The position numbers and the translations under genes are program-made. A stretch of DNA of 64,000 bases from Eublepharis macularius (taxonomy: Eukaryota; Chordata; Lepidosauria; Squamata; Eublepharidae), in contig NC_072806.1 in assembly GCF_028583425.1 (NCBI RefSeq), positions 36,564,001 through 36,628,000 on the forward strand. The letters are read 5' to 3'. Within the stretch, counting starts at the first letter, position 1; the number at the start of each line of letters is the position of its first letter. The notes under the pieces were generated by a model, which saw only the letters and a list, made by a program, of their open reading frames with translations, was not told the origin of the DNA and ran no database searches. Below, piece after piece: positions 231 to 64,000 of the stretch.

Positions 231-360
231 ACAAAAACTCACCTGAACTGTAACTTCACCAAGTGACCACCTAATAGAAGCTGCTGTTCTCCACTCCCTG
301 TGTAGTAATAATGTTGGTCTACCTTCTGGGGTTATATTGTAAAGATGGTTGGAGCAATTC

Positions 361-570
361 CATGGTTGTCAGTTCCAGATTGGGAAATTCCTGGAGATTT
401 GAGGGTGGATCCTGGGGAGGGGAGGGCTTGGAGACGGGAAGGACCTCAGCCGAATATAATGCCATAGAGTCCATCCTCCAATGCAGCCATTTTATCCGGG
501 GGGGGGGCTGATCTCTGTAGTCTGGAGGTCAGTTGTAATTCTGATAGATCCCCAGGGGGTTGCACTCCTA
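361..570 (+). repeat. hAT MITE family 'GTTGCCAG', diverged copy
   Basis: It matches the consensus of this family: TTGGGAAATTCCTGGAGATTT, a GGGGAGGGG block, CATAGAGTCCA, GCAGCCATTTT, and the reversed GGAGATCTCC end. Both termini are eroded and no TSD can be read. Confidence 0.7.
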
Positions 571-2705: not shown

Positions 2706-3835
2706 AGTTTTTTTTAAATCAGGTTCTGAGAAATGATGCTTGGACTTTGGGGCGAGTATAAATGGAAGAAAAAGTCATCCAAGGAAATTTGCAGAAGAGA
2801 GAAGGCTAGAGGAGGGGAAAGAATTGGGAGAGGGAATGTCCAGGAGCAGCAGAGAGGAGAGAGGCTGAAGTCCACATAATGGATTTTGAAATAACCAGCC
2901 AAATCTTGGGCCGCAGCCCCTTCCACGTATTTGTGATGTAAATTAGCCAAATAGCTGTCACCCCTGGACCTCTGGCTCCATTACTCTAGGACAGCATTTT
3001 TTAAAATTGTCTGCCTTTCGGGCAACCCTGTCCACCTAGACTTACTTGCTGAGGAACCTCTGCGTCTCCCCCCAGCCCCCCGCATTACACACTGTGGAAG
3101 GCCCCTGGAGGGGAGGCCTTGTTCCAGGCTGCTTGCTCAGTTCCTGGGGGTTACCATCGAAGCCTGTTTGGGTTCTACAGAATCCTATACAAATTGAAAG
3201 CAGACTGTAGAAGATACTCGACACATTATGCAAGGGAAGAGCCAGAGACAAGGCATCCTTTGCGGGGGCTTGTCCTGCCTGACTGATCTTCCCCCTGAGA
3301 GAACTCCTAAGGGCCCCATTTCCCACCCAGAACTTGATGCAAAAGCCACCATAAAAAGCCATAGAGGATCTTTGGGGTCCGTTGGTGTAATCATGCAACA
3401 TTTGGGTTGCTTGGACAGTTAAGCTACTTATGTTATTGTTATTTGCTCCATGTGCATGTGGACAAGTTCTCCGGTTCTGAGTCAGGAAAATGGTGCAGGG
3501 GGAGAGCTTGAACCCGCTGTCCCTGCATGCTGCTGCTCCAATCTGAACAGGACCAGACAATCTGCACTTCAGCAGAGGATGCCTCGAACATGCCTGCCTG
3601 GCAGGAGCAGACACAAGGGAGGCCTGTAAATGCTGTGAAATGTAGTTAGGTTCTCTCAGGATTCTGTGTAACTGTTCAGTTACTTATTACTTAAAGGGAT
3701 GGTGGGCTCTCGTCTCACCGCTGGTCTTCAAGCAGAGACCGGGCAGCCATGGACTAGTCATGGACACTAGCTTTGGATTTCCGGCATTGATCAGGGGGTT
3801 GGATTAGGCTTCATGGGTGCTTCCAGCCCTAGGCA

Positions 3836-4045
3836 CGATGGAGAGAGCTGTCAAGTTATAGTTGACTTATGGTGACCCCTGGTGGGGTTTTCATGGCAAG
3901 AGGCTAATGTAGGTGGTTTCCCATTACCTGCCTCTGCAACCCTGGACTTTGTTGGAGGTCTCCCATCCAATTACTAACCAAGGCCGACCCTGCTTAGCTT
4001 CTGAGATCTGACAAGATCAGGCTCACCTGGGCTATCCAGGTCAGT
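3836..4045 (-). repeat. 5S rRNA-derived SINE, reverse copy
   Basis: The reverse complement carries GGATGGGAGACCTCC, GCTAAGCAGGGT and AGATCTCAGAAGC in 5S order. They are followed by the same tail as the copy at 48-230 (GTCACCATAAGTCAAC type). This is a second, diverged copy of one SINE family. Confidence 0.82.
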
Positions 4046-4680
4046 GTATTTTAAAGACTATGTGCCCAGTTTAAAAACCACACATTTTCCCTTTAGTGGG
4101 CTCAAGAGAGCATCTACAGTTTCCTTGCAGCCAGAGATTATGCCTCATGAGTAATAGCATTATATCAAAAGCCTTCTCTCTTTTTAGTTAAAGCTCCATA
4201 ATACAAGTGAGATCCGTTTTAAAATGTACAAGTAATAGCTGCCATTATTCTGCCACTATCAATATATATTCTTCAGTATCAATCAATGTATTCTTCACTA
4301 ACAAGAGCTAAATCCTGTGGCTGAGAGGCAAGCTTTGAGTTTGCACAAAAGTTCTGCTCCCCAAACAGCTGCGTCTCCCGTTATTGTAAAACCATTGTTA
4401 ACTTTCAGAAAGCAAAATATTTTTTTTGGAAGGAGAAAGCCTGTATCTAGTTTATTGCAGGTCCTTGAAAAGAAAAAGAAAAAAGGCAGGAGAAGGCCTG
4501 ATGCCCAGAATTTTTGTTTGAAGGTAGGGGTGGAGAGTTCAGCTTCAGATCTCCTGATCTGAACTGCATACTCATGTCTATACAACAAGGATTTATAACT
4601 TTCCACTTGTGCTATTTTAGGACCAAACTCAATGGGAGCTGGAAGATCCACGATCCAGAGTATCTTTTATTGTTAAAAAC

Positions 4681-17160: not shown

Positions 17161-17322
17161 GGTAAACTGTGTAGGAGAGCCTGAGGGATGCTGTGTCTGT
17201 GGAGATGAGATGAGATGAGAGTTTAGTCTTGTCGTGTCGAAGGCTTTCACGGCCGGAGAACGATGGTTGTTGTGGGTTTTCCGGGCTGTATTGCCGTGGT
17301 CTTGGCATTGTAGTTCCTGACG

Positions 17323-17353
17323 TTTCGCCAGCAGCTGTGGCTGGCATCTTCAG
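17323..17353 (-). ncRNA. Hammerhead-like core, arm 1
   Basis: The minus strand reads CTGAAGA, T, a 6-bp stem GCCAGC/GCTGGC with a 7-nt loop, then GAAA. It has the order and conserved bases of a hammerhead core, apart from one extra base before the stem. Confidence 0.4.
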
Positions 17354-17422
17354 AGGTGTAGCACCAAAAGACAGAGATCTCTCAGTGTCACAGTGAGATC
17401 TCTGTCTTTTAGTGCTACACCT

Positions 17423-17452
17423 CTGAAGATGCAGCCACAGCTGCTGGCGAAA
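17423..17452 (+). ncRNA. Hammerhead-like core, arm 2
   Basis: Plus-strand twin of the motif at 17323-17353, with one base lost in the left side of the stem. Confidence 0.35.
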
Positions 17453-18469
17453 CGTCAGGAACTACAATGCCAAGACCACGGCAATACAGCCCAGAAAACC
17501 CACAACAACCAGAGTTTAGTCTGTTTAGTAAAGATCTGTGTGGAAAACTAGTCTGTGTGACCGAGTCTGTGGATATATCTTCAAGGAGAGATAATTATTT
17601 TTGAAACCACCAAGTTTAAGAGTTATTTTGAAACCAGTACAGTTATCAAAACTCTGCAACCATCACACTTACGTACTTATAAATTCTACTTTTAAGGGAA
17701 AAAATGCCACTTTTTAACCTCACCACCGCCCTCACTTGCTGACTGTTCTGTCAACAAGCCTTTTATAACAAGCCTTCCTATATTACAAGGCCTTTGGTGC
17801 AGCGAAAACCCTTGGAGAGAGTCAGGAAAGCAGTAAGATATTGGTCACACAAGCAAAAATGGGAAAGGTTTCTTGAGGTAAAATCCTGAGTAAAACAAAG
17901 AGTGTTGGTTGTGTGACCGGGGCCTTCTTGAGGTATAAGTAAGGTGGAGCTGCATTAAAGGTCCGAAGGCAACACTAAATCATTACAACCACTTTCAGCA
18001 ATAAATTAATGGCAATGCAAACGAAAAAATGAGATCATTGGCACATAAGAAATGAAAATGCACTCTGTTTCCAAAATCCAATGATTTCAGAATAAGCTTG
18101 GGGCGGGTGGGGGGGGGGAACAGCTGGGGCTTCCAACACATGCACCCACGCTGGTTGACAAGGCAGGTTAATTGCGCTAGAATTAGTTCTTCCGTTATGT
18201 GTAGGAAGGAACCTCTCTCATTCTCTCAGATGCCAGGAAATTCACTCCAAAGCAGTTTCAGAACTTCTTTACCCACACTTAAAACAGGGAGTGGAAGATC
18301 TCCAAAACATTTCTTTACTCCATTTCTTTCCCAAAGTTTATTAATCTCATATCTGAGGGTATCAACTTCAAGAAAGATTTGAGCTAAAATTAATTTCATT
18401 GGAAGAAAAAGTGATACTCATTTTTAAAACATTCCCCCTTCCCCATTTTTTAAAATTTTGTGAGTATTC

Positions 18470-28162: not shown

Positions 28163-28370
28163 ATATAGGTCAAGATGGGTAGCTCTGTTAGTCTGTCTGT
28201 AGCAGTAGAAAAGAGCAAGAGTCCAGTAGAACTTATAAGACTAATAAAATTTGTGGTAGGGTATAAGCTTTCGTGAGCCACAACTCACTTCTTCAGAAAG
28301 CTCATACCACAAATTTTGTTAGTCTTATAGGTGCTACTGGACTCTTGCTCTTTTCTACTGCTAAGAGATA
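28163..28370. mobile_element. Inverted-duplicate Penelope-like insertion, second family
   Basis: The arms AGCAGTAGAAAAGAGCAAGAGTCC and its complement flank a centre near 28280. The left end also has TCTGTTAGTCTGTCTGTAG. The flanks AGGGATATAG and AGAGATACAG agree at 8 of 10, a possible TSD. It carries the CTGAAGA-hairpin-GAAA block. Confidence 0.6.
28269..28296 (-). ncRNA. Hammerhead-like core
   Basis: The minus strand reads CTGAAGA, A, stem GTGAG/CTCAC with a 6-nt loop, then GAAA. The stem sequence differs from that at 17.3 kb but pairs perfectly. Confidence 0.4.
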
Positions 28371-41700: not shown

Positions 41701-44700
41701 CCCCTGCCCCATGCCCAGAAGATGGCAAAACACCGTCAGGATCCCTGGCCAAACTGGCCTGGGGGAAATTGCTACCTGACCCTAAGGTGGCGATCGGCCT
41801 TACCCTGGGCATGTAAGAAGGGGCCACAAGAACTAAGCACTGATGTAACCCTTCCTGCCCTCCCATCATGATCTGCCTAAGTTCACAGAATAAGCATTGC
41901 TGTCAGATGGCCATCTAGCCCCTGCTTATATAACTTATGATTAAGTGTTATTGTACATTGAAAAATGTCATTGATAGAAATATTTTACTGTAACACAAGA
42001 GGAATTTTTAAAAATCGTAGGGGAAGTCTATATGAACCACGAACCTGCCCATACAAGGCATTGTTTGGTTTTTAGGGTATTGTGCTTGATAAGCAGGAGA
42101 CAGAGGGCCTTTTGTTCACCAAACACACAGAAGAAGGCCAGCGGAATGGACTCAGAGCTGGCATTCCCTGCATCCCCAGACTGTTGTTGTGATGCCAGCC
42201 CAGTCATATTTTTAGAAATGTCACATGACTGTGGCACTGTCAGGAGCCTTCAGGGCCAGAACCTAGAACCTCTGGGTTTGTGCTTTGCTGCCTCCTTGTG
42301 ATGAACACCATCCAGGCTACGCTCTAAAAGGCTTTACAGGCTCTGATACCCTCCTAAGCTCCAGGGTAATTCCAGATATCCAGGCAGTCCACTGTTTTCG
42401 CTTTGACATGGAAGTGCTATTAAAGCTCCCAACACAGGCCCGAGAAACCCTTTCCCCCCTTCGCTTTAAGTTTGCGTTTTGCCACACAACCCTAAAGGAG
42501 CCCATAGAGGCACACTGCAGTTTTAAGTAAGGATATGATGAAGTTACAGATTACAAAAAACAACAAAACAGGAGGCAAGTTGCACCGGAGAGAGGAGCAA
42601 AATTCATTGTGGCATAATCTTTCTTGAGTCTGAGCTGCCTTCATGGCTTCCCCTTTCTGTTGGAATATATTTTGTTCATCTTTTAAGGCGCCATTGGCCT
42701 CCTGTTTATTTTGGCTGCTGCAGACGAACACGGCTAGCCATTAAGACCAAGCGAAGCAGCACTGAGACTTCGCCTGGCTGGCTGGCCGCCGTCCCTTTGC
42801 TGGATTCCCTCCAACTCTAAATGCCCAAAGCCTCCCTGCCTCCTATTCCCCCACCCTAACAACCTGCCAACAGTTCACCAGTGGCGAGGCACTGTGTAGT
42901 CTGTTGGGTGGCAGAATATTAGAGAGAGCCCATCTCTGCCTACATCACAGGTCTTAGCTTGTATAATACGTCAGCTAAAATTACGTCAGCTAAAATTAGT
43001 GGAATAAGTGTAGCAAAACACAGCAAACAGACAAAACCCCACACACATTCACAGCAAATGCAAAAGGGTTTTAGAGGGAGGGAAATGTTGCTTCTGTACT
43101 TACTTTGCTTCTAGAATCAACGTTCAAGAGACAGACGCCACAAGCCAGCTCTTGAGCATTTTTAATTCCTGGACGAAGCATGCAAGAAGAGAAATCCAAC
43201 GAGTTTTCATCAGGCTGCAGGGGCAACAGGGAAAAAACACATATTTTACTCCATAAGTTAATATAATAAATGACGTGAGATTTGCTGCTACCCACCTTAC
43301 ATCCCTATGTTAGGAGAAAGGAAAGAATATTAATTTTAGTATTTTGAATAAATAAATAATTAAGATGTAGTATCAGCCGCCATAACACGCTTAGTCGGCT
43401 TTTAAAAGGCTAAAGGGCAAGACTGTCACAGCTGCTACTATCCACGACAACTATGTGGATCCTCCAGGTTCAGAGGCAGTCCATCTCTGCATAGCAGATG
43501 CTGGAAAGAATCAGCAGAGGAAGGCCATCATTGTCGTGACCTGTACAACGGATTCCCAGAGGCATGTTGGGAGCAGACTGCTTGGCTACAGGAAACTTTG
43601 GTCTGATCTAGCAAAGAGCATCTTATCAGCTGTATTTAAAATTAAGCCTCCATATACAGTGGCAATATACATCTAAATATCTAACACTGGGACCAAATTA
43701 CAGGGGACAGCTGTTGCCTTCATCTTGCTCTCTCTGTAGGCTTCCTGGTTGGCTACTGCTGGAAACAGGACAATGAGCTAGGTGAACCACGGCTTGGTTC
43801 AAAAGGCAATTTTTAACATTTTTAGTTCACCTTCTCACAGTGCAATCCTAAGCCGAGTGACATCCTTCTAAGCCCACTGGTTTTAATGGATTTAAAGGGT
43901 GTAACTGTTCAAGACTACACTGTTGTACTAGCAGTGAAAAAAAAGACAGACTTTATTGCAGATCTTAAAAACTCTCCTCCAAAATTATCCACCTTTCCTT
44001 CACCATGACATCCAAGAAGCAGAGCACAATGAGCAGGGTTTTACGTGTGTAACATGATTGGATGTGAACCATGTACAGAAGACAAAAAAACCCTGGTCTA
44101 GGAGGGCCCATAGAATTGGAAGCCAATGTCCCAGTCCTACTAGAACACCACCAAAAGACAGCGGTGGTAGTATTGCCACCACTTCTCCGAACTAGCGCTA
44201 GTTCAGACACTGGGGGAAACAAACCTTGAGTCTTACTGGCCAGCTGCGCTGAATCTCCATGAAACAGTTTCAAAGGCCAAACCAGGCACTAGTTTAGATT
44301 AAAGCCAAGGATCAAAGAAGCACCACACTGTTATGAAGAATATTTTGTTTATTATAAATATGCACTGAAAGATTATATACTGTAAAGTTTGTAAAAGGAC
44401 AGGTAAAACAATAACGATCTAACTAGACCTAACATTACACATACCAAGCAGAGTCTCTTGCCATGATGGAAACTTGCAGGTATTACACAGCATTCTTAGT
44501 CAGTATGAACGTGTCTAAGTCCAAGGCATCAGGTGTCCAATCCCAGGGTGATTGGACACCTGTAACCAGGGCTTTTTTTCTGGGAAAAGAGGTGGTGGAA
44601 CTCAGTGGGTTGCCCTCAGAGAAAATGGTCACATGGCTGGTGGCCCCGCCCCCTGATCTCCAGACAGAGGGGAGTTTAGATTGCCCTCCGCGCCGCTTGG

Positions 44701-48739: not shown

Positions 48740-51700
48740 GAATGATTAATCTACCATATGAATGATTAATCTACCAGAACAGTAGATAAGCCAAGTGAAG
48801 GTATCTTCTCTGGCCACCAACATAACAAAAACAAAACCTTGTTTAGATGAAAAGGCAGAACCTTTCTGGTCACCAGCAAGAGTAGAAAACATTTCTAGGG
48901 TTAGATTCAGGCATGCCTCTTTTTTCCTGTTTCAGCATCTACTACCTGAGCTATCCTTTTGTCTCCTCTGGATTAGGAGCCTTTGGGACAGAAAAAAAGG
49001 ATGTCTTTTCAGACCATACAACCCTTCTACCTTTCCCTGAGCACTCAGGATAGGGCTGAGCCTGGAAGAAACCCAGCCTGCAGCAGGCAATACTTTCACT
49101 TCCATCAGAACCAGGACTAGCTTCTCGAAACCAACTAGTGACATTAAAAGCCCAAAGAGATGCCACAATCTTTAAAGGTGCATACAAAGTTGCCTTATAC
49201 AGAGCCAGACTGCCAAGGTCCGTGTGGTCTGTTCTGTCTGGCAGAGGGTGCCCAGGGTCTCAGGAAAAAGTCTTCCACTGGAGATCCGTTCCCTGCCATA
49301 GCCCCTCCTCCCCTATCTGCAGCCCTGCCCCGGACAATTCTGCTTTCTCACCTTAATCATGAAGCACCACACTGCACCTTCCTTGATTAGATCCAACTTT
49401 ATGTCAATACTACTCTGCTCATCTCCCAGCGGGTAAGGACTAGAGATGGGCACAAACCGAAATACAAACCAAAATTAAGCACGAACCAGGCCGGTTCGCG
49501 AACCAGCGGTTCATCAGATCCCATTTCTGACGAATCGCCACGAACTTTAGGCTGGTTTGTTTGGTTCGTTTTTTGGTTCCTCACTTCAGACAGCCTGCTG
49601 CCAATCAATCAGTTTCTTAGGCAACAGGGGATGGACTTCCTGCAGACCTTCTGCTGACCCGGAAGTGACCTTCTGCTGACCCGGAAGTGACGATTTTCTG
49701 ATCTGGATGTGACATTTTCATGAACCAAACAAACTGGTTTGTGAACCAGGGGCAGGTTCGTGAAAGTTTGTGGTTCGTGAAACTTGACAAACTATAAACC
49801 ACATGGTTCGTGCCCATCTCTAGTAAGGACCACTCACAGCTGTTAAGAGATGGGCAGACTACGATTGATTTCTCTTCTACTGGTCTTTGTTTCAAGTTGG
49901 CCTCCCTTTGTCATACTGCCCATTTCCACCTCTCTGTGGCTTGTAAGTTTAAATACAAATATTTGTCTGCAACAGATGTGTATGTGCCATGCCTCTGATG
50001 AAGTGAGTTCTGACTCACAAAAACGAATGCTGGAATAAATGTTCTTAGTCTTGGAAGTGCCACTGAGGTTCTGTTTAATTTTGCCTCGCTTATTCTTCCC
50101 AACTAGAAATGCTTGAGTGTGTGTGTTTTTGCAGCTGATACAAAAGGACCAAAACAAGTTATTCTGGTAGAAGGAGACACCATACTTACTTGGAGTGCAC
50201 TTTCCAAGCATCTCTGCCATTCATAAGCATATCTCTCGCTCTCCTACATGACAAAGAAAAAAAAAGGGGGGGGAGAAATCACACCATGTGCTAAACCAGG
50301 GCTATTTCAGGACTTTTTTCTTACACGGAGGATGACAAAAATCAGAAAAGGTGCCCTCCAGAACTGAGGATTCTTTTCCCTTGAAACACACTTGCAGAGA
50401 TGTAAGAAGTGGTCCTCAGAAGTTGCTGTCCACTCTGCTAACTGGGAGGTGCAGACCAAGGAGGAATGTATCCTTGGCTAAACCATACCACATACCTAGA
50501 AGGCAGGGATCAAACACGCCACAGCAGCACAGTAAGAACACCACATTATGATCTACACACATCCCACAAAATGGCAAGGCAGATTCCTTCTGGGACTCCA
50601 GACTGGAAATAATCGTGAAATAGCTTTTTTGAATGCTATAAGACTAAGCACATGAAGGCGTGGTTTCCTTGATGTGCTGCCTTCTTACATGCAAGGAGGT
50701 CTTTTTCTTTAAACATCAGGGAACATTCAACAATATAATCCCATGCACAAAAGTGTTGGTGGTGGGTCTCTACGCTCCAAATGAGAATAAAACTGGATTT
50801 TATTTTTAAAAATTGGGGAATGTTTAACAGATTTAGCATTTGAAAATTGTTGTTTGATGGGGGACTGGAATGGAGTGATTGACCCGAAGATAGATAGATG
50901 CTCGAAGAAACATATTAGGACAATCCAGGGTAAACTGCCTAATGTTTTCTTTGATTTAATGGACAATCTGGGTCTGATTGATCTTGGGAGACAAAAATGG
51001 TAATGCAAGAGAATATACTTTTTTCAGAAAGACATAGATCTTTCTCGAGAATAGATACGATTTTGACATCAAGGGTCATTGCCACCAAGGTAGTTAAAAT
51101 AGAGGTCCTACCCAAGACCTTCTCAGATCATAATCCTGTAGCTATGACTTTTAGGGGGGGTGGAAAGGGTTCCTTTAGGTGGAGATTAATGAAGCTGTGT
51201 TACAAAATGAAGAGATTACTAAAGACAGTAAAAATAAACTAAAATAATTTTTTGAGTTAAACGAAGGCACAGACATGAGAATGGTCTGCGATGCAAGTAA
51301 AGCATTTATTAGAGGTTATCTAATCCAATATAATGCTCAACTGAAGACAAGGAACCAAGAGAAAAAGCAACATATTTTGGAGGAGATATAGAGCAAAGAG
51401 GAAGAACTAAAGAGAGCTCCTGGCAATACAAAAATATTGCAACATATTAAGATCTTACAACAACAACACTTGATGTTAATGACAAGATAAATGGAAATTA
51501 AATTACGAAACAAAGAATATTTGAATATGCAAATAAGCCAGGGAAATGGTTGGCTTATAAATTGAGAAAGGAGAGAGAAAAGAGAATGATATTGAAAATA
51601 TAAGAGACGGATAAGGTATTAACAGAATTTGAAATTGCCCTTTGTACAAATGATGAACATGTTATTTCTAAAATGTATAAACAGTTGTTGAGGTTTGAAA

Positions 51701-54700: not shown

Positions 54701-57266
54701 TTTGTGTGTCAGCCAATGCTGTGAGCCCTTTGCTCAGCTGAAAAATATTTTAAATTACTTGCTGATCAGAGGTGCAGGTAATGCCAAACAGGGAAATTCT
54801 TTAACATTTCAAGCACTTGGAAAGGGGGTACGGCACTGCCCACTTCCCTATGGCTAACAAAAGCATAATAAGAAAAAAGGAAAACATAAAAAATATGTAA
54901 TCTGCAAAATGTAGTGGCTGCAAAATTTAGCTTTGTCTGGTTCAGGGTACAGAAGTCTGATTAAAGCTTGCATAATATTAGCAAACATCCTCTGGGTGTT
55001 GTGCTATAAAAAGCACCACTCACTCAGCTTCAAAGTATTGCTTAACCAGTCTGGTAAGCTCTCACCATATCTATAGCATCCTCCTGTTCTGAGGGTAGCT
55101 CCAGTTAAAGAGTAGCTGAAAAGATCTTTCTCAGCCTGACACCCTGGACAGTGGCTGCCATTCAGACAGTGCTCAGCTAAATGGGGGCAATGGTGAGACT
55201 TAGTAAAAAGGTAATTTTACATGTTTCCTACAGCCCAGCTCAAGTTAGTTTGATGTTTTTGGAGTTCTCCTGAAATTTCTACACTGCACTAGGCATTTAC
55301 AATGTGCATTATGACTCACTCAGGTGCATGCAGCCACAGTACTAAAAACAATCATTTTCAAATGGGTTATCTGCCCCATGTTCAATGCTTTTATGAGGAT
55401 GGGTTTTCCCCAACTTCCCACATAGGGCTGCCAGGTTCTTATATCTTCTCAGTGGGAGGGGGGGACCTGGCACTCATCTTGTGCCTTGTGTGTGCAGCAC
55501 TTGTGTGATGACATCATTTCCAGGAAGTGATGCCATCACGCTGTCCACAGGCATGCTCCCATGCTTCTCATGCAGCTAATTCTGACCCCAGAGAAGCACA
55601 GAACCATGCCCACAGCCAGCGCAATGACATCACTTCAGGAAGTAACGTTGTTGCGCCCCACTGAGAGTGTGCACAGTGCGCACTTTCCCTAGTTGCTTGC
55701 TGGAGGCGAGCAATCTCAAGGGGGCTTGCCAGCAATTGTTGGGCAACAGAGCAACCCCTGGGAGACTGGCTGTCACTGGCAGGCAACTGGGAAGCCTATC
55801 CCCTCAGCATTGTGGTGCATCTTCCCATGCAATATATACTATTATTGTCAGCAATGCCCTTCCACTCTCTTCATTGGATACACAGGTCCGTTCCTATGTA
55901 AAAGAATAAATGGACATACATCTGACATTAAAAGCCACAGCACTCAAAAACCAGTGGAAGAAACTTCAAGGGGAGATTACAGTGTGAACTTGTTGAAATT
56001 GAGTTCATTCACAAATTCATAACAATGGACACCCCCCCACACCGGGGGGAGGGGGCAGGGGGCAGGATTGAATAGAGACCTAGGATTCATATCTCACTAC
56101 AGATGCTAATTTCTATTCTAATCAAGCTGCACTTTACCTTTGCATCCTGATGCCCTTCCTTGTAACACCTCTCCCACCTTCTGGCTGGGATATAAAGGCT
56201 CAGTGATCTCTATTCTTACTCGTATCTGAAGAAGGGAGCTCTGACTCTCGAAAGCTTATACCCTGAAAATCTTGCTGATCTCTAAGGTGCCACTGGACTC
56301 AAATTCTGCTGTCCTACAGGTATTTTTAACCCACTGTTTTCTCCATTTTCATTTGAGGATACAGGCTCTGGACACCTTCTAGGAGCCATTCATATATAAC
56401 ATCCAGAACATCCTAGCAATTGGCATCCATCAGCACTAGGGGGTTTGGAAAGCGAGTGGGTGTTTTGATCAGCAAGTCAAACGGCCAAGAGAGGAGGAAA
56501 TTTAGATTAGGAAAACAGCATGGAAGAAACCACCACCACCCCCCTCATCAAAATAACACAATTTTTAGTTGTTTGCAACTAAAAATAGAAAAGTCTAGAA
56601 ATCTATTAATGGGTCTTCCACATCTCAACTGGCTCAGCTCTAGCAAATGAGTATGACAAGCCAACGACCCAAGTTGCTTACCTTGCACAGAGAGGTCGAA
56701 GGTTGCAAGCTCACTCTTGATCATTTCTTCGCTAGATTTCATTTTTCCCTGGGAAGTGGCCAGTAGGAAGTCAAACTTGCTAATCTTTGGCTTCTCGCTT
56801 TGAAACTCTCCAAAGTCATCCATGCTTTCTTTAGTTGCTCCCAAAGTGGCATTGCTGGCACCTGCCTCTTGGATCGCGGCTGGGGCTTTGTGCCCCTTTG
56901 CCAAAGGTCTCGCAAATTCCCCAAAGTCTTCCACATCGTCATCGCTCTGGTCCACAGACTGATGGTCAGAACCTTTGAAGTTTGCAAAGGGTGAAAACTG
57001 CACATCTTGGAGAGCATCCTCGCTTGCAAAAGTTGTTACTTTAGAAACAGTGGTCATGGTGATGTTTTCTGAACTGCCAAACAAGGTCTCTTTCTTCTGA
57101 AGGACAGAGGTAGCTGAGGAGGAGCCACTTCCAGGGGGAAGTGGGAAGGAGAACTTCCTGCTTTGGTAGGTGTCCTCCTTATCAGACCAGTCATAGCTTG
57201 GAAAGCTACTCAAAGCAGAGTCCTGGCTGTAACTTCCAAAGGGGGCACCTTTCAAGTCATCAAGAT
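35650..57266 (-). CDS. SYNRG: Synergin gamma, C-terminal part (eight exons, gene continues beyond window)
   Basis: Gamma-synergin binds the gamma-ear of the AP-1 clathrin adaptor and works in trans-Golgi/endosome vesicle traffic (family knowledge). Eight coding exons are seen on the minus strand, in order: 57266-56682, 54008-53845, 50243-50190, 48677-48581, 46704-46556, 43214-43104, 41073-41038, 35781-35650. Every junction has AG/GT signals and the reading phases join exactly. The first exon carries two acidic-phenylalanine motifs, EDFGEF and DDFGEF, of the type that binds the AP-1 gamma-ear. The rest is the conserved C-terminal region ending in PDLL followed by TGA. The N-terminal EH-domain exons lie outside the window. 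Introns are 1.9 to 5.3 kb and full of young transposons, but none interrupts an exon. The gene runs toward DUSP14, tail to tail. Confidence 0.95.
36920..37757 (+). repeat. CR1 LINE 3' region split by a Sauria SINE
   Basis: AGGAAGAACTTCCTGACA, GAGGTTTTTAAGCAGAGGC and GATGGCCATCTGACA are CR1 3' blocks. The end ACCCTAAGATTCTATGA is the CR1 terminal octamer region. The left edge is uncertain. Confidence 0.8.
37491..37720 (+). repeat. Sauria SINE, 5' truncated, inside CR1
   Basis: It begins at GTGGGACTCTAATCTGG, has GGGTGACCTTGGGCTAATC, and ends ATGTTGTTGTTGTTGTTGTTATT. The CR1 sequence resumes directly after. Confidence 0.88.
38874..39316. mobile_element. GC-rich hAT-like MITE, copy 3 (SYNRG last intron)
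   Basis: TAGGGATGCCAGTCCCC to GGACCTGGCAACCTTA. The interior has CACTTCCCGGAAGTGACC and G-runs. The TSD is not readable. Confidence 0.65.
39317..39425 (+). repeat. tRNA-derived SINE fragment
   Basis: GATGTAGTTGATGGTGTGTCGG and AGGTTCAACTTC keep the head and box B. TGGATGACCTTAGGCC is the core. The tail is missing. Confidence 0.6.
39817..40055. mobile_element. Palindromic hAT MITE copy 5 (SYNRG last intron)
   Basis: Both CAGGGCTTTTTTTC-type ends are present. Part of the right arm is deleted, so it is shorter than the other short forms. The flanks CCTGCACA and CATGAACA agree only partly. It is probably an older copy. Confidence 0.82.
40140..40345 (+). repeat. tRNA-derived SINE (SYNRG last intron)
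   Basis: GCAGTGGTTAAAATTG (A box), CAGGTGCAAATGC (decayed B box), TGGGCGACTGTGAGCC (core), GGGGAGAAAGGTGGGACGC (tail). Confidence 0.7.
41038..41073 (-). CDS. SYNRG: SYNRG 36-nt microexon, probably alternative
   Basis: The minus strand reads TTTCAG, then 36 nt encoding KEDKPAEEPPRE, then GTACGA. Phase is 0 on both sides, so inclusion or skipping keeps the frame. I recall a similar Lys/Glu/Pro-rich insert at this point of human SYNRG, which is the main support. The weak donor (GTACGA rather than GTAAGT) fits regulated splicing. Confidence 0.8.
41600..41935 (-). repeat. CR1 LINE 3' region, reverse
   Basis: The plus strand starts ATAGAATCATAGGGTTGG, the reversed CR1 terminus, then CTAATCCAACCCCCTGCAC. 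It matches the reverse of the 37.2-37.7 kb copy (CAGGATCCCTGGCCAAACTGG), so the two face each other across 4 kb of intron. Confidence 0.85.
42661..42742 (+). repeat. Fragment of the 28 kb/62 kb inverted-insertion family
   Basis: TTTTAAGGCGCCATTGGCC and GCTGCAGACGAACACGGCTAG match the distal part of the arm at 62250-62310. No hammerhead-like block remains. Confidence 0.55.
42968..42997. repeat. Two tandem 15-bp units
   Basis: ACGTCAGCTAAAATT occurs twice in a row. It is a local duplication about 110 bp downstream of the SYNRG exon's donor (minus strand). Confidence 0.8.
43104..43214 (-). CDS. SYNRG: SYNRG exon (Cys-containing conserved segment)
   Basis: Exon of 111 nt, 37 codons, phase 0 on both sides, starting PDENSLDFSSCMLRPG and ending CLLNVDSRSK. 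The acceptor is CCCCTGCAG and the donor GTAAGT. Cysteines in SSCML and ELACGVCLL, with HASC in the last exon, could form a small metal-binding or redox site. That is inference only. Confidence 0.95.
44567..44826. mobile_element. Palindromic hAT MITE copy 6 (SYNRG intron)
   Basis: 260 bp with a perfect TSD CCTGTAAC at 44559-44566 and 44827-44834. It lies next to a 31-bp chance-looking palindrome (44531-44561, AGGTGTCCAATC and its complement). Confidence 0.93.
46556..46704 (-). CDS. SYNRG: SYNRG exon (VVEVYRVTKRVELG)
   Basis: Exon of 149 nt. Two bases finish a Gly codon, then 49 codons include VVEVYRVTKRVELGIKATA and WNNLIGFMSLAALT. The acceptor is TGATAG and the donor GTAAGG. The alternating charged and hydrophobic pattern suggests a helical bundle segment. 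No domain name is claimed. Confidence 0.94.
47142..47399. mobile_element. Palindromic hAT MITE copy 7 (SYNRG intron)
   Basis: 258 bp with a perfect TSD ACGGGACC at 47134-47141 and 47400-47407. The ends are in the opposite order to copy 6: the GCTGGAACGTGG end is on the left. Confidence 0.93.
48581..48677 (-). CDS. SYNRG: SYNRG exon (32 codons plus one base)
   Basis: Exon of 97 nt beginning IIKKANDTLNGIS and ending GMEYLL plus the first base of a Gly codon. The acceptor CTAG directly abuts a (TTTC)n microsatellite, and the donor is GTATGG. The sequence is nearly identical to my memory of mammalian SYNRG. Confidence 0.94.
48682..48737. repeat. (GAAA)n microsatellite at a SYNRG splice acceptor
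   Basis: GAAA/GAAGAA repeats of about 56 bp. On the SYNRG strand this is (TTTC)n and ends 4 bp before the acceptor AG of exon 48677-48581. Confidence 0.95.
49441..49822. mobile_element. hAT MITE family 'AGAGATGGGCACGAACC', copy 2 (SYNRG intron)
   Basis: Same ends, with a perfect TSD GTAAGGAC (49433-49440, 49823-49830). The interior includes two tandem CTGACCCGGAAGTGAC units. Confidence 0.93.
49995..50130 (+). repeat. Diverged copy of the inverted-insertion family
   Basis: It holds CTGATGA, A, stem GTGAG/CTCAC, then AAAA (the G of GAAA is lost), followed by TTCTTAGTCTTGGAAGTGCCACTG. It is a single arm and old. Confidence 0.55.
50190..50243 (-). CDS. SYNRG: SYNRG small exon (18 codons)
   Basis: Exon of 54 nt, phase 0 on both sides, encoding ESERYAYEWQRCLESALQ. 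The acceptor CATGTAG follows a C8-T9 homopolymer polypyrimidine tract, and the donor is a strong GTAAGT. It starts the conserved helical C-terminal region. It is too short to appear as a free-standing frame. Confidence 0.93.
50748..52589 (+). pseudogene. L1 LINE, 5' truncated and internally deleted
   Basis: A perfect 16-bp TSD AATATAATCCCATGCA (50732-50747 and 52590-52605) brackets the insertion, which ends in a short A-tail. The 5' end starts inside the ORF2 endonuclease. Endonuclease blocks are readable: VGLYAPNENKTGF, then GDWNGVIDP, then SRIDTILTSRV and FSDHNPVAMTF. The reverse transcriptase core is absent. The C-terminal part follows (KMMYRWYMTPENWL, KILKTRIQLKPEI). Stops and frame changes are present throughout. 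It is 1.84 kb against 6-7 kb for a full L1 and is not functional. Confidence 0.9.
52615..52790 (+). repeat. Decayed SINE-like fragment
   Basis: CTTTGAGTGCTGAACTAGGA, CTCAGTGGGTGACCTTGGG and CATGGATAAAAAGGTGG resemble a worn tRNA SINE. A similar worn copy is at about 53605-53785. Confidence 0.4.
52941..53200. mobile_element. Palindromic hAT MITE copy 8 (SYNRG intron)
   Basis: 260 bp with a perfect TSD GGAGAGCC at 52933-52940 and 53201-53208. It has a near-perfect central palindrome and looks like one of the youngest copies. Confidence 0.94.
53845..54008 (-). CDS. SYNRG: SYNRG exon, Ser-rich region into DKYKDLTGEVE
   Basis: Exon of 164 nt. Two bases complete a Gly codon from the previous exon, followed by 54 codons. 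The acceptor is CTTGCAG and the donor GTAAGG. It contains KRSLSLGDREISRSS, a likely phosphorylated basic/serine stretch, and the conserved VIRDKYKDLTGEVE. The open frame continues past the donor into the intron, so a frame scan alone gives a false C-terminal extension. Confidence 0.94.
55423..55798. mobile_element. GC-rich hAT-like MITE, copy 4 (SYNRG intron)
   Basis: TAGGGCTGCCAGGTTC on the left and GGGAAGCCTA on the right. TTCCCACA and TCCCCTCA agree at 6 of 8. It has inverted CATCATTTCCAGGAAGTGATG blocks. The right end is less sure. Confidence 0.55.
56220..56330 (+). repeat. Copy of the inverted-insertion family, single arm
   Basis: CTGAAGA, A, stem GGGAG/CTCTC, GAAA at 56226-56253, then CTTATACCCTG and TCTAAGGTGCCACTGGACTC. 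The order is the same as in the arms at 28.2 and 62.2 kb. Confidence 0.65.
56682..57266 (-). CDS. SYNRG: SYNRG exon with two DFGEF motifs
   Basis: Exon of 585 nt: two bases completing an Asp codon, 194 full codons, then one base of the next codon. The acceptor is TTTGCAG and the donor GTAAGC. Motifs: SYDWSDKED at codons 23-31, VLQKKET at 54-60, EDFGEF at 112-117 and MDDFGEF at 148-154. It ends in the conserved KISKFDFL ... KSELATFDLSVQ stretch. The middle (about 95-145) is rich in Ser, Asp and Ala and poorly conserved against my memory of human SYNRG, as expected for a disordered linker. Confidence 0.95.
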
Positions 57267-61738: not shown

Positions 61739-62126
61739 GTGGAGCCTATCACAGCTGAGAGAAACCCTGATGGGAATGTATAATCTCAGTCCAGAATATT
61801 TAGAGCTTCTGAGGGAAAAGCTGAAAGTTGAAGCAGAACAACTGTTTGAGAGGGAAAAGTGGAATGAACAAAAGTAGTTTGAAAGGGTAAAGTGGAGAGT
61901 TGAAATAGAACTTAGAACTTAAGAGATGGAAAGACAAAACAGTTTGGAAGCAGAGAGATTACAATTAGAGAGAGATTTAAGAATAGGGATAAAAAGGAGG
62001 GAAACCCTGAACCCAAAGCTGATTTTCCTCAAGTTACCCAAAAAGATTTTATGGTGTATGTGTCAGGAGAAACAAAAAGAGTCCAGTAGCACCTTTAAGA
62101 CTAACCAACTTTATTGTAGCATAAGC

Positions 62127-62154
62127 TTTCGAGAATCACAGTTCTCTTCGTCAG
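62127..62154 (-). ncRNA. Hammerhead-like core, left arm
   Basis: Minus strand: CTGACGA, A, stem GAGAA/TTCTC with loop CTGTGA, then GAAA. Confidence 0.4.
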
Positions 62155-62197
62155 ATGCATGGAGGGCAAGACCAGTTTCTTCTTGCCCTCCATGCAT

Positions 62198-62225
62198 CTG
62201 ACGAAGAGAACTGTGATTCTCGAAA
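62198..62225 (+). ncRNA. Hammerhead-like core, right arm
   Basis: Plus strand: the same block, identical to the left arm. AUGC after GAAA can pair with GCAU before CTGACGA, closing an outer helix. Confidence 0.42.
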
Positions 62226-64000
62226 GCTCATGCTACAATAAAGTTGGTTAGTCTTAAAGGTGCTACTGGACTCTTTTTATTTTTGCTTCTACAGACTAAC
62301 ACGGCTAACTCCTCTGCATCTATGTGTCAGGAGAAGATCCACAAATCTTTCTGTCAACTTTTGAAAGATCTGCTCGGAACTGGGGAATACCATGCAGACA
62401 CACAATATATGAAGTATTTACCCATCTTAATTAGAGGGGACTTGGCTGAGATCTACAACACATTTCCCTCAGATAAACCTGTGGTGTATGATGAATACAA
62501 GGAAGCTGTATATGACAGATTTAAGTTAGGTGCTGATTACTTCAAAAAAATTTAGAAGCTTAGTACCTAAGAAAGAGAAGTCATTTAAGTCTTTTACTGC
62601 CAAACTAACAGATTATTTTGATAGGTGGATTTCATCTGCCAAAGCTAACTTTAAAGAGGGAATGAGAGATCTAATTATTTCGGGTCAATTTTTATTTCAG
62701 CTTCCCTCAGAGATTATACTTCTGGTTAAAGATAAGCTTCAAGAGAATGTTAATCAAGCATCAGAGTGGGCAGATAGATTAACACTTAATAGAGGAGGTT
62801 GGGATCGCCATGAAAAGAAAGATTATCCTTATAAACCAGATTTTAAATCAAGAAGAGAACAAGAAGGAGAAAGGAAAGGAACATATGAGAGAGCTGAGAT
62901 TACAAAAAGACAGGAAAAAGTATAAAAGGAAACAAAGATGGATACTAGAAAGATAGAAAATGTTTTGTATGTGGTCTGAAAGGGCATTTAGCTTACAAAT
63001 GTCTAAAGAACCAACCCAAGCAAGCAACACTTGTATGGAGGGTCACTAGAACTAACTCAGAGAATGAAAGTGAACAAGCTAGAGACTCCAACAGTTCGAC
63101 AAACACAAATGCAAGATCCAGTAAAAACACCCCCCTAACCCATAAATACTGAAGAAACAGCTTACTTGTGTGGTGTAAAGACAGATAAGGTTGCACAGGA
63201 TACTGAACCGAGAGACATGGTACAAATAAATGGGAGAGATACTTTTGCCATTCTAGACCAGGAGCATCAGTAACACTGGTCAAGGAGGATTTGGTCAACA
63301 ATGAAAACCTGATTCCAGATAAGCAAATATCCTTGCAAGGTGTGTGGGGAAATTCTAAAGAGGTGCCACTAGCATAGCTAAAAAGTAACTGGCGAGGAAA
63401 AGAAGAATATTTCCCTGTAGCAGTTATTAAGAACAGAAATTACCAGTAATATTGGGAAGAGATGTAATGGGAGCAAAGGCAAGAATTCAAATATGACTGG
63501 CTCGGAAGAATTGCTACAAGTTGAACCAAGGGGAGCAGAAAACAGGCCCCTAGGTATCTTGGCAACAGACACAATTGATACATTGCAAGGGGGGGGGGGA
63601 AGAGACACACAAACTCCCGTCAGTACTGCTGAAATGTCCCAAGAAAAAGGAAGAGGCATAAATAAAAACACTGAAGAGTTTAAAAAAGAAGTTATGACAG
63701 ACCCTGAGTTAAAGGACATATGAGAGAAAACCAGGCAGAATGAGATAAACACAGAAACAGACATTTTTTGTGTGGGAAAATGAGTTAATTTACAGGATTT
63801 GGAAACCAAAGGGGACCAAGTCAGTTTGGGAGCCTGTAAAATAGCTGGTTACTCCTAAAAAAAATACAATCCTTGACTGAGGTGGCACATGACATTCCAT
63901 GCGCAGGTCATTTAGGAATTAGCAAAACCTAGAAGAGGTTAATGAAAGGATATTACTGGCCTAGAATTTCACAAGATGTGAATAAGTACTGCCAAAGCCG

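Follow-up and report, generated by a model that had tools for sequence, protein, structure and literature searches.

The 64,000-nucleotide stretch of Eublepharis macularius DNA analyzed here (contig NC_072806.1 of the assembly GCF_028583425.1, forward strand, positions 36,564,001 to 36,628,000; hereafter the window) contains a repeated block, CTGANGA-hairpin-GAAA, the copies of which are very probably minimal type I hammerhead ribozyme motifs of Penelope-like retroelements, located at the boundary between the pseudo-long terminal repeat (pseudo-LTR) and the body of the element. The resemblance to a hammerhead, which was put forward with reservations in the initial annotation of this DNA, is supported by the presence of the full core, stem II, stem I and the UH cleavage site. 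In addition, one of the four types of motifs distinguished here (A, C, D and E), that of family A, has the geometry of PAc, the Poseidon Penelope-like element of Anolis carolinensis.

Anatomy, abundance and covariation of the motifs

All seven places named in the initial annotation were found in the window sequence. When the window was searched without filters with a covariance model (R1) built from 19 hand-picked seed copies, all of which contain the full core, these seven places and no others were matched at E <= 5.3e-6, the next match being at 0.065. Four of the seven (56221, 62115, 62193 and 17311) are themselves seeds of the model and match by construction; those at 17418, 28257 and 49990 are not. 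The bare CTGANGA-gap-GAAA pattern is weak, with 9 matches in the window against a mean of 4.47 in shuffled sequences (5 of 100 shuffles reach 9), so that the case depends on the full motif. The core followed by a stem II of at least 5 pairs is found 5 times compared to a mean of 0.115 and a maximum of 2 in 200 dinucleotide shuffles, and the complete motif (core, stem II, UH and a stem I of at least 3 bp) is found 4 times compared to 0 in 200 such shuffles.

The initial annotation could place neither stem III nor the UH cut. Both are present in a minimal form, in the order GAAA-[GC or CG]-U[C/U]-stem I 3' strand: in the four complete window copies, GAAA is followed by a self-complementary dinucleotide (GC or CG), the UH and the 3' strand of stem I. 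Among the window copies scanned, five in number, the UH is either UC or UU; stem I is 3-4 bp long, with family A having just 3 bp. The window copies have no stem III within the molecule, only the GC or CG dinucleotide, and such a dinucleotide can pair only with a second copy. Judged by its sequence, the motif is a hammerhead of type I order in which stem III is cut down to two bases.

The E hammerhead unit at 62194..62233 (+), identified by both the covariance model and the motif scan, reads GCAT-CTGACGA-A-GAGAA..TTCTC-GAAA-GC-TC-ATGC and consists of the 5' strand of stem I, GCAT (62194-62197), CTGACGA (62198-62204), the extra A (62205), stem II (62206-62221), GAAA (62222-62225), the stem III dinucleotide GC (62226-62227), UC (62228-62229), with the predicted cut after 62229, and the 3' strand of stem I, ATGC (62230-62233). 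Its inverted partner unit at 62119..62158 (-) has UU at the predicted cut (62124-62123). The D unit at 56222..56261 (+), with the core at 56226, reads GTAT-CTGAAGA-A-GGGAG..CTCTC-GAAA-GC-TT-ATAC, that is, has GTAT/ATAC as stem I, the dinucleotide GC, and UU. The intact A unit at 17316..17356 (-) reads CCT-CTGAAGA-T-GCCAGC..GCTGGC-GAAA-CG-TC-AGG, and the other A unit, at 17420..17459 (+) with the core at 17423, fails the strict motif test, its stem II being short by one base. In the C unit at 28257..28301 (-), with the core at 28296, stem II (GTGAG/CTCAC) is intact, and an inverted-copy junction stands where the 5' strand of stem I would be. The unit at 49990..50034 (+) is decayed, as the initial annotation had graded the copy at 49995 (+), and is still matched by the covariance model. 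An eighth relic, badly decayed and inverted, lies near 42606-42650 (-), upstream of an adjoining relic tail (42664-42736, +), the two together spanning 42606..42736; the hammerhead part was recognized by eye and is not called by the model.

Stem II does not directly follow A9 in these motifs: an extra base separates the two in 84 of the 88 motifs from the window and loci L001-L068, many of which are near-identical. This single extra base (A or U), which the initial annotation had observed in every copy and counted against a hammerhead, turns out to be the norm, so that the objection falls. The base is A in the D, E and C types and U in family A. In the genome, the D/E/C-type pattern CTGANGA-A-G-N14-CGAAAGCTY has 24,600 exact matches with the extra base and 44 without it, a comparison that covers the D/E/C type only; among the 44, 29 pair better when one extra base is kept, 13 pair better without it, and 2 tie. 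The UY is fixed by the genome-wide core pattern, so that the matches are no test of the UH, and the genome copies of the C type were met through the core-pattern search alone. The A-type pattern with the extra T has 33,454 exact matches, which brings the exact cores of the two types to 58,054, whereas the reversed-pattern controls gave 0 matches for the D/E/C-type pattern and 0 for the A-type pattern. The Penelope-like carriers are thus extremely abundant in the E. macularius genome, and this number of cores in a single genome is sufficient to ask by sequence comparison how the ribozyme relates to insertion.

The claim that the letters of the stem change while pairing is kept is borne out: stems I and II both covary in two samples, of 19 and 39 copies. 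Over ten pairs of the 19 seeds, 87.9% of the cells pair and 24 cells are changed on both sides, compared to a shuffled mean of 8.0; the covariation score is 0.423 versus 0.181 after shuffling (0 of 500 shuffles reach it) and is 0.05-0.15 when the partner is slid by 1-3 columns. The 39 copies were taken, in the order of contig C1, from the first 60 of 100 listed matches to a pattern in which nothing but the core and the first pair is fixed; the seven members of a tandem array were left out, as were 14 further copies whose stem letters were mostly represented already, and accordingly, the sample leans to variety. In this sample, 284 of the 312 stem cells are paired, compared to 258.6 +- 3.1 after shuffling, and 0 of 1000 shuffles reach this value. 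Stem II positions 2-5 pair in 37, 37, 39 and 38 of the 39 copies and the four positions of stem I in 37, 35, 31 and 30; the sixth position of stem II, paired in 23 of the 39, is excluded from the 312-cell total. Stem II shows A-U/U-A and G-C/A-U exchanges, and stem I shows C-G/U-A.

Penelope-like carriers

The connection with Penelope-like elements made in the initial annotation holds, as indicated by the reverse transcriptase (RT) and GIY-YIG frame, pseudo-LTRs, tail, inverted 5' copy and short, variable target duplications of the carriers. The RT and GIY-YIG domains are encoded in one open reading frame (ORF), the GIY-YIG matches being below the Pfam cut-off. In family E, locus L089 contains a 933-codon open frame with matches to RVT_1 (1.1e-11) and GIY-YIG (0.0011, below the cut-off); a search of PDB chains with this frame gave no match. 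In another family E locus (L004), a GIY-YIG-like frame (PF01541, 0.00061, also below the cut-off) ends about 116 nt before the core. In family A, locus L064 matches RVT_1 (1.2e-8) and, over the GIY-YIG-like part and below the threshold, T5orf172 (0.065), which we take to be a GIY-YIG relative, and the frame of L066 matches no Pfam family at 0.001. The proteins of families A and E match at 33% over 216 aa.

The motif is located shortly past the end of one RT/GIY-YIG frame and either ahead of the start of the next frame (E) or across it (A). The family A locus L201 contains an inverted hammerhead at 283-330 (-), a hammerhead at 460-507 (+) and a second plus-strand hammerhead at 3129-3176; the 863-aa ORF starts with the ATG at 471, inside the hammerhead at 460-507, and its stop ends at 3062, 66 nt ahead of the second plus-strand match. 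The repeat of the ORF start in this locus extends over 115 nt from the ATG and is followed by an AT-rich flank. In family E (L089), the loop of stem II contains a UGA stop, and 92 nt separate the predicted cut from the first in-frame ATG downstream. In the window, a relic stretch from the GIY-YIG endonuclease end of a Penelope-like ORF of family D (55831..56100, +; tblastn to the L089 frame, 41%, 102 aa, E 2.5e-13) stands ahead of the D core, together with a putative TATA-like box, ATATAAAG, at 56190..56197 (+), 36 nt ahead of the core.

The E-family insertion at 62072..62320 (+) is 5'-truncated and comprises two head-to-head hammerhead units, with the 3' tail on the plus arm, between identical 15-bp target-site duplications (62057..62071 and 62321..62335). 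From 62217 onward, the sequence is homologous to the beginning of the L089 open frame, in an alignment that continues past the right border of the insertion. The inverted hammerhead pair at 62,084-62,326 is predicted to fold as one long hairpin on each strand (-163.5 and -167.4 kcal/mol), so that this copy is probably inactive or silent. A comparison of the whole inverted pair with Rfam gave 15 matches, all below the threshold; 14 are to microRNA families and the remaining one is to a bacterial small RNA, and they are ascribed to the long inverted repeat. The A-family (Poseidon/PAc-like) insertion at 17230..17510 consists of two head-to-head pseudo-LTR ends and is flanked by the 12-bp target duplication AGAGTTTAGTCT (17218-17229 and 17511-17522).

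Tandem arrangements are found elsewhere in the genome. Ten head-to-tail 52-bp hammerhead units are present within one Penelope-like insertion (L161, 181-702; G000:C1:10495350-10496350), seven of which match the exact core pattern; this is a small hammerhead satellite in which neighbors could pair in cis. Two tandem hammerhead cores, 47 bp apart, are located at G000:C1:11786827-11786905 (-).

Cleavage, template RNA and alternative explanations

The motif is predicted to cut RNA at the UH site. Because the dinucleotide is unable to pair with itself within one motif, cleavage would require either another motif to pair with, arranged in tandem or carried by a separate RNA, or the protein of the element, as published for PAc. 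A cut in family A would part the start codon from the ORF, and in family E it would take away the 5' leader only. In L201 (471-512), the next in-frame AUG of family A (codon 14) is 10 nt past the predicted cut, and a cut RNA would keep an in-frame AUG.

E insertions were sampled by their tail alone (73 nt starting 10 nt after the cut), and 40 of the 724 candidates were scored. Among these, 38 extend through the predicted cut, one of them (L136) by 6 nt only; one starts at the cut (L147) and one after it (L150). An origin of the insertions at the ribozyme cut was rejected, given that 1 of the 40 starts there. Since 38 of the 40 run past the cut site, the RNA copied into E insertions appears to be mostly uncut. 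This agrees with the in vitro result on PAc and argues against cutting as a template-making step. The 5' ends cluster at the edge of stem I: 11 of the 40 fall at -7 to -3 before CTGANGA, with 2 at -2 to 0, 10 across 1 to 25, 2 at -28 and -19, and 13 at -40 or beyond; the program that assigns the ends misplaces at least L143, counted among the 11, the 5' end of which is at about -20 when read by eye. TATA-like boxes precede the stem I edge by approximately 30 nt in D and E1, with a shorter spacing (about 23 nt) and a poorer fit in E2. Given the position of these boxes ahead of the clustered 5' ends, the stem I edge may be the transcript start. A more speculative and, in our assessment, improbable extension is that the hammerhead both forms the transcript 5' end and switches the RNA between translation and copying. 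Since the catalytic core of family A includes the start codon, translation from this AUG would be incompatible with a core that is folded or cut. If such a switch exists, the fixed extra base would be part of the compromise (the U of the AUG in family A) and of a protein-assisted fold.

Several results weigh against the interpretation of these motifs as hammerheads. The comparison with the Rfam 15 hammerhead models, which the initial annotation had proposed, gave no match at E <= 10 for the four copies tested, among them the intact A copy and one with a lost base, and the scan of the window at the gathering score detected no hammerhead family, only a 5S rRNA-like match at 3930-4057 (-), which scores 43.1 bits compared to a gathering score of 38 and may represent a repeat derived from 5S rRNA. 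The extra base together with the absent stem III may explain the lack of Rfam annotation for these motifs. Among the 19 seeds, the pairs with a double change and the further pair types are not above the shuffles (184/500 and 210/500), and the tenth pair is unformed in 12 of the 19, which were picked for the full core; moreover, the copies are related, so that the covariation counts are not counts of independent events. Of the three transcripts folded, that of E alone forms both stems with a high probability: the pairing probability of the 3-bp stem I of family A is 0.01-0.02 in its transcript, and in the family D transcript, it is 0.06-0.07 for stem I and 0.22 for stem II. Nearest-neighbor energies do not favor a double hammerhead (for E, -9.3 versus 2 x -6.4 kcal/mol); the dimer step accordingly draws on the literature and on the GC or CG dinucleotide in two groups. 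Finally, for PAc, RNA-seq showed no reads with an end at the cut (PMC11167929).

An alternative, which we consider unlikely, is that the motifs are catalytically dead hammerhead relics retained as structured RNA only, for example, as a binding site for the protein of the element. The 38 of 40 E insertions that read through the cut, the weak stem III and the weak folds of A and D all fit such a relic, and so does much of what is published on PAc: its RNA is uncut without the protein, insertion in vitro is independent of cutting, and hammerhead ribozyme mutants still insert (PMC11167929), in addition to the missing RNA-seq ends. However, PAc RNA is cut once the protein is added (PMC11167929), motifs poor in helix III are stated to be possibly capable of self-cleavage as dimers (PMC7761336, PMC6466107), and the A, C, D and E types retain the core and the UH despite their different stems, albeit in samples partly chosen by the core.

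Far less probable is the explanation that the block is kept for a role at the start of the Penelope ORF, in protein coding or in RT initiation, the likeness to a hammerhead being secondary. The family A motif does span the first ten codons of the 863-aa ORF, and in PAc the RT start and a presumed protein-binding region are just downstream (PMC11167929). In family E, however, the core, the UH, the dinucleotide and the covarying stems all precede the ORF, and the loop contains a stop. A conserved coding frame, considered in the initial annotation as a possible explanation of the block, therefore does not account for it, even though the family A motif overlaps the first codons. Furthermore, PAc mutants behave as a hammerhead predicts: C3G and G8C each abolish cutting, and the double mutant partly restores it (PMC11167929). 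Coincidence, by which related repeats would have acquired both a CTGA/GAAA pattern and a hairpin, would suit the near-background frequency of the bare pattern but is refuted by the full motif, 4 copies of which compare to 0 in 200 shuffles, and by the covariation of both stems.

Comparison with known systems

Minimal type I hammerheads of Penelope-like elements and terminons were reportedly described by Cervera and de la Pena in 2014 and by Lunse, Weinberg and Breaker in 2017. The motifs analyzed here share with them the type I order, the lack of a usable helix III, the location in pseudo-LTRs and the proposed activity as dimers. The (+) hammerhead of Chrysanthemum chlorotic mottle viroid is said to carry an extra nucleotide between A9 and stem II; it differs in being a viroid ribozyme with full stems and no link to Penelope. 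A viroid hammerhead with an extra core nucleotide is on record in the title of a paper. Penelope hammerheads without helix III have been described (PMC7761336, PMC6155905), and the role of the self-cutting RNAs of these elements is called unknown in reviews (PMC7761336). The anatomy of the carriers matches that of the Penelope elements of Adineta vaga, in which the pseudo-LTRs contain a TATA box, the inverted 5' copy includes palindromes, and both the tail and the target duplication are short (PMC3846280); the word hammerhead occurs 0 times in that paper.

The closest counterpart of family A is PAc, to which it is likened by geometry alone and not by sequence identity. In PAc, the start codon comes after C3 and G8 and is itself followed, at 26 nt, by the cut, and the RT starts 111-118 nt into the ORF (PMC11167929). 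In the intact A copy at 17 kb, the ATG (17347-17345) directly follows CTGAAG, so that the extra U is the U of the AUG, and the TC at the predicted cut ends exactly 26 nt after the ATG, as in PAc. The two further resemble each other in the position of the start codon right after G8, the RT and GIY-YIG protein and the pseudo-LTR ends, and the family A repeat ends 115 nt into the ORF, as compared to the RT start of PAc. In contrast, the D, E and C types differ from PAc in their stems, in the dinucleotide GC and in the extra base, which is A rather than U, and in E the ORF starts downstream of the motif. The value of the minimal hammerheads described here lies in their copy number, the extra base, the overlap of the core with the start codon and the uncut-template result, and their novelty is modest. 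On this comparison, the motifs are not a new kind of RNA: A shows the published geometry of PAc, and D, E and C are further members.
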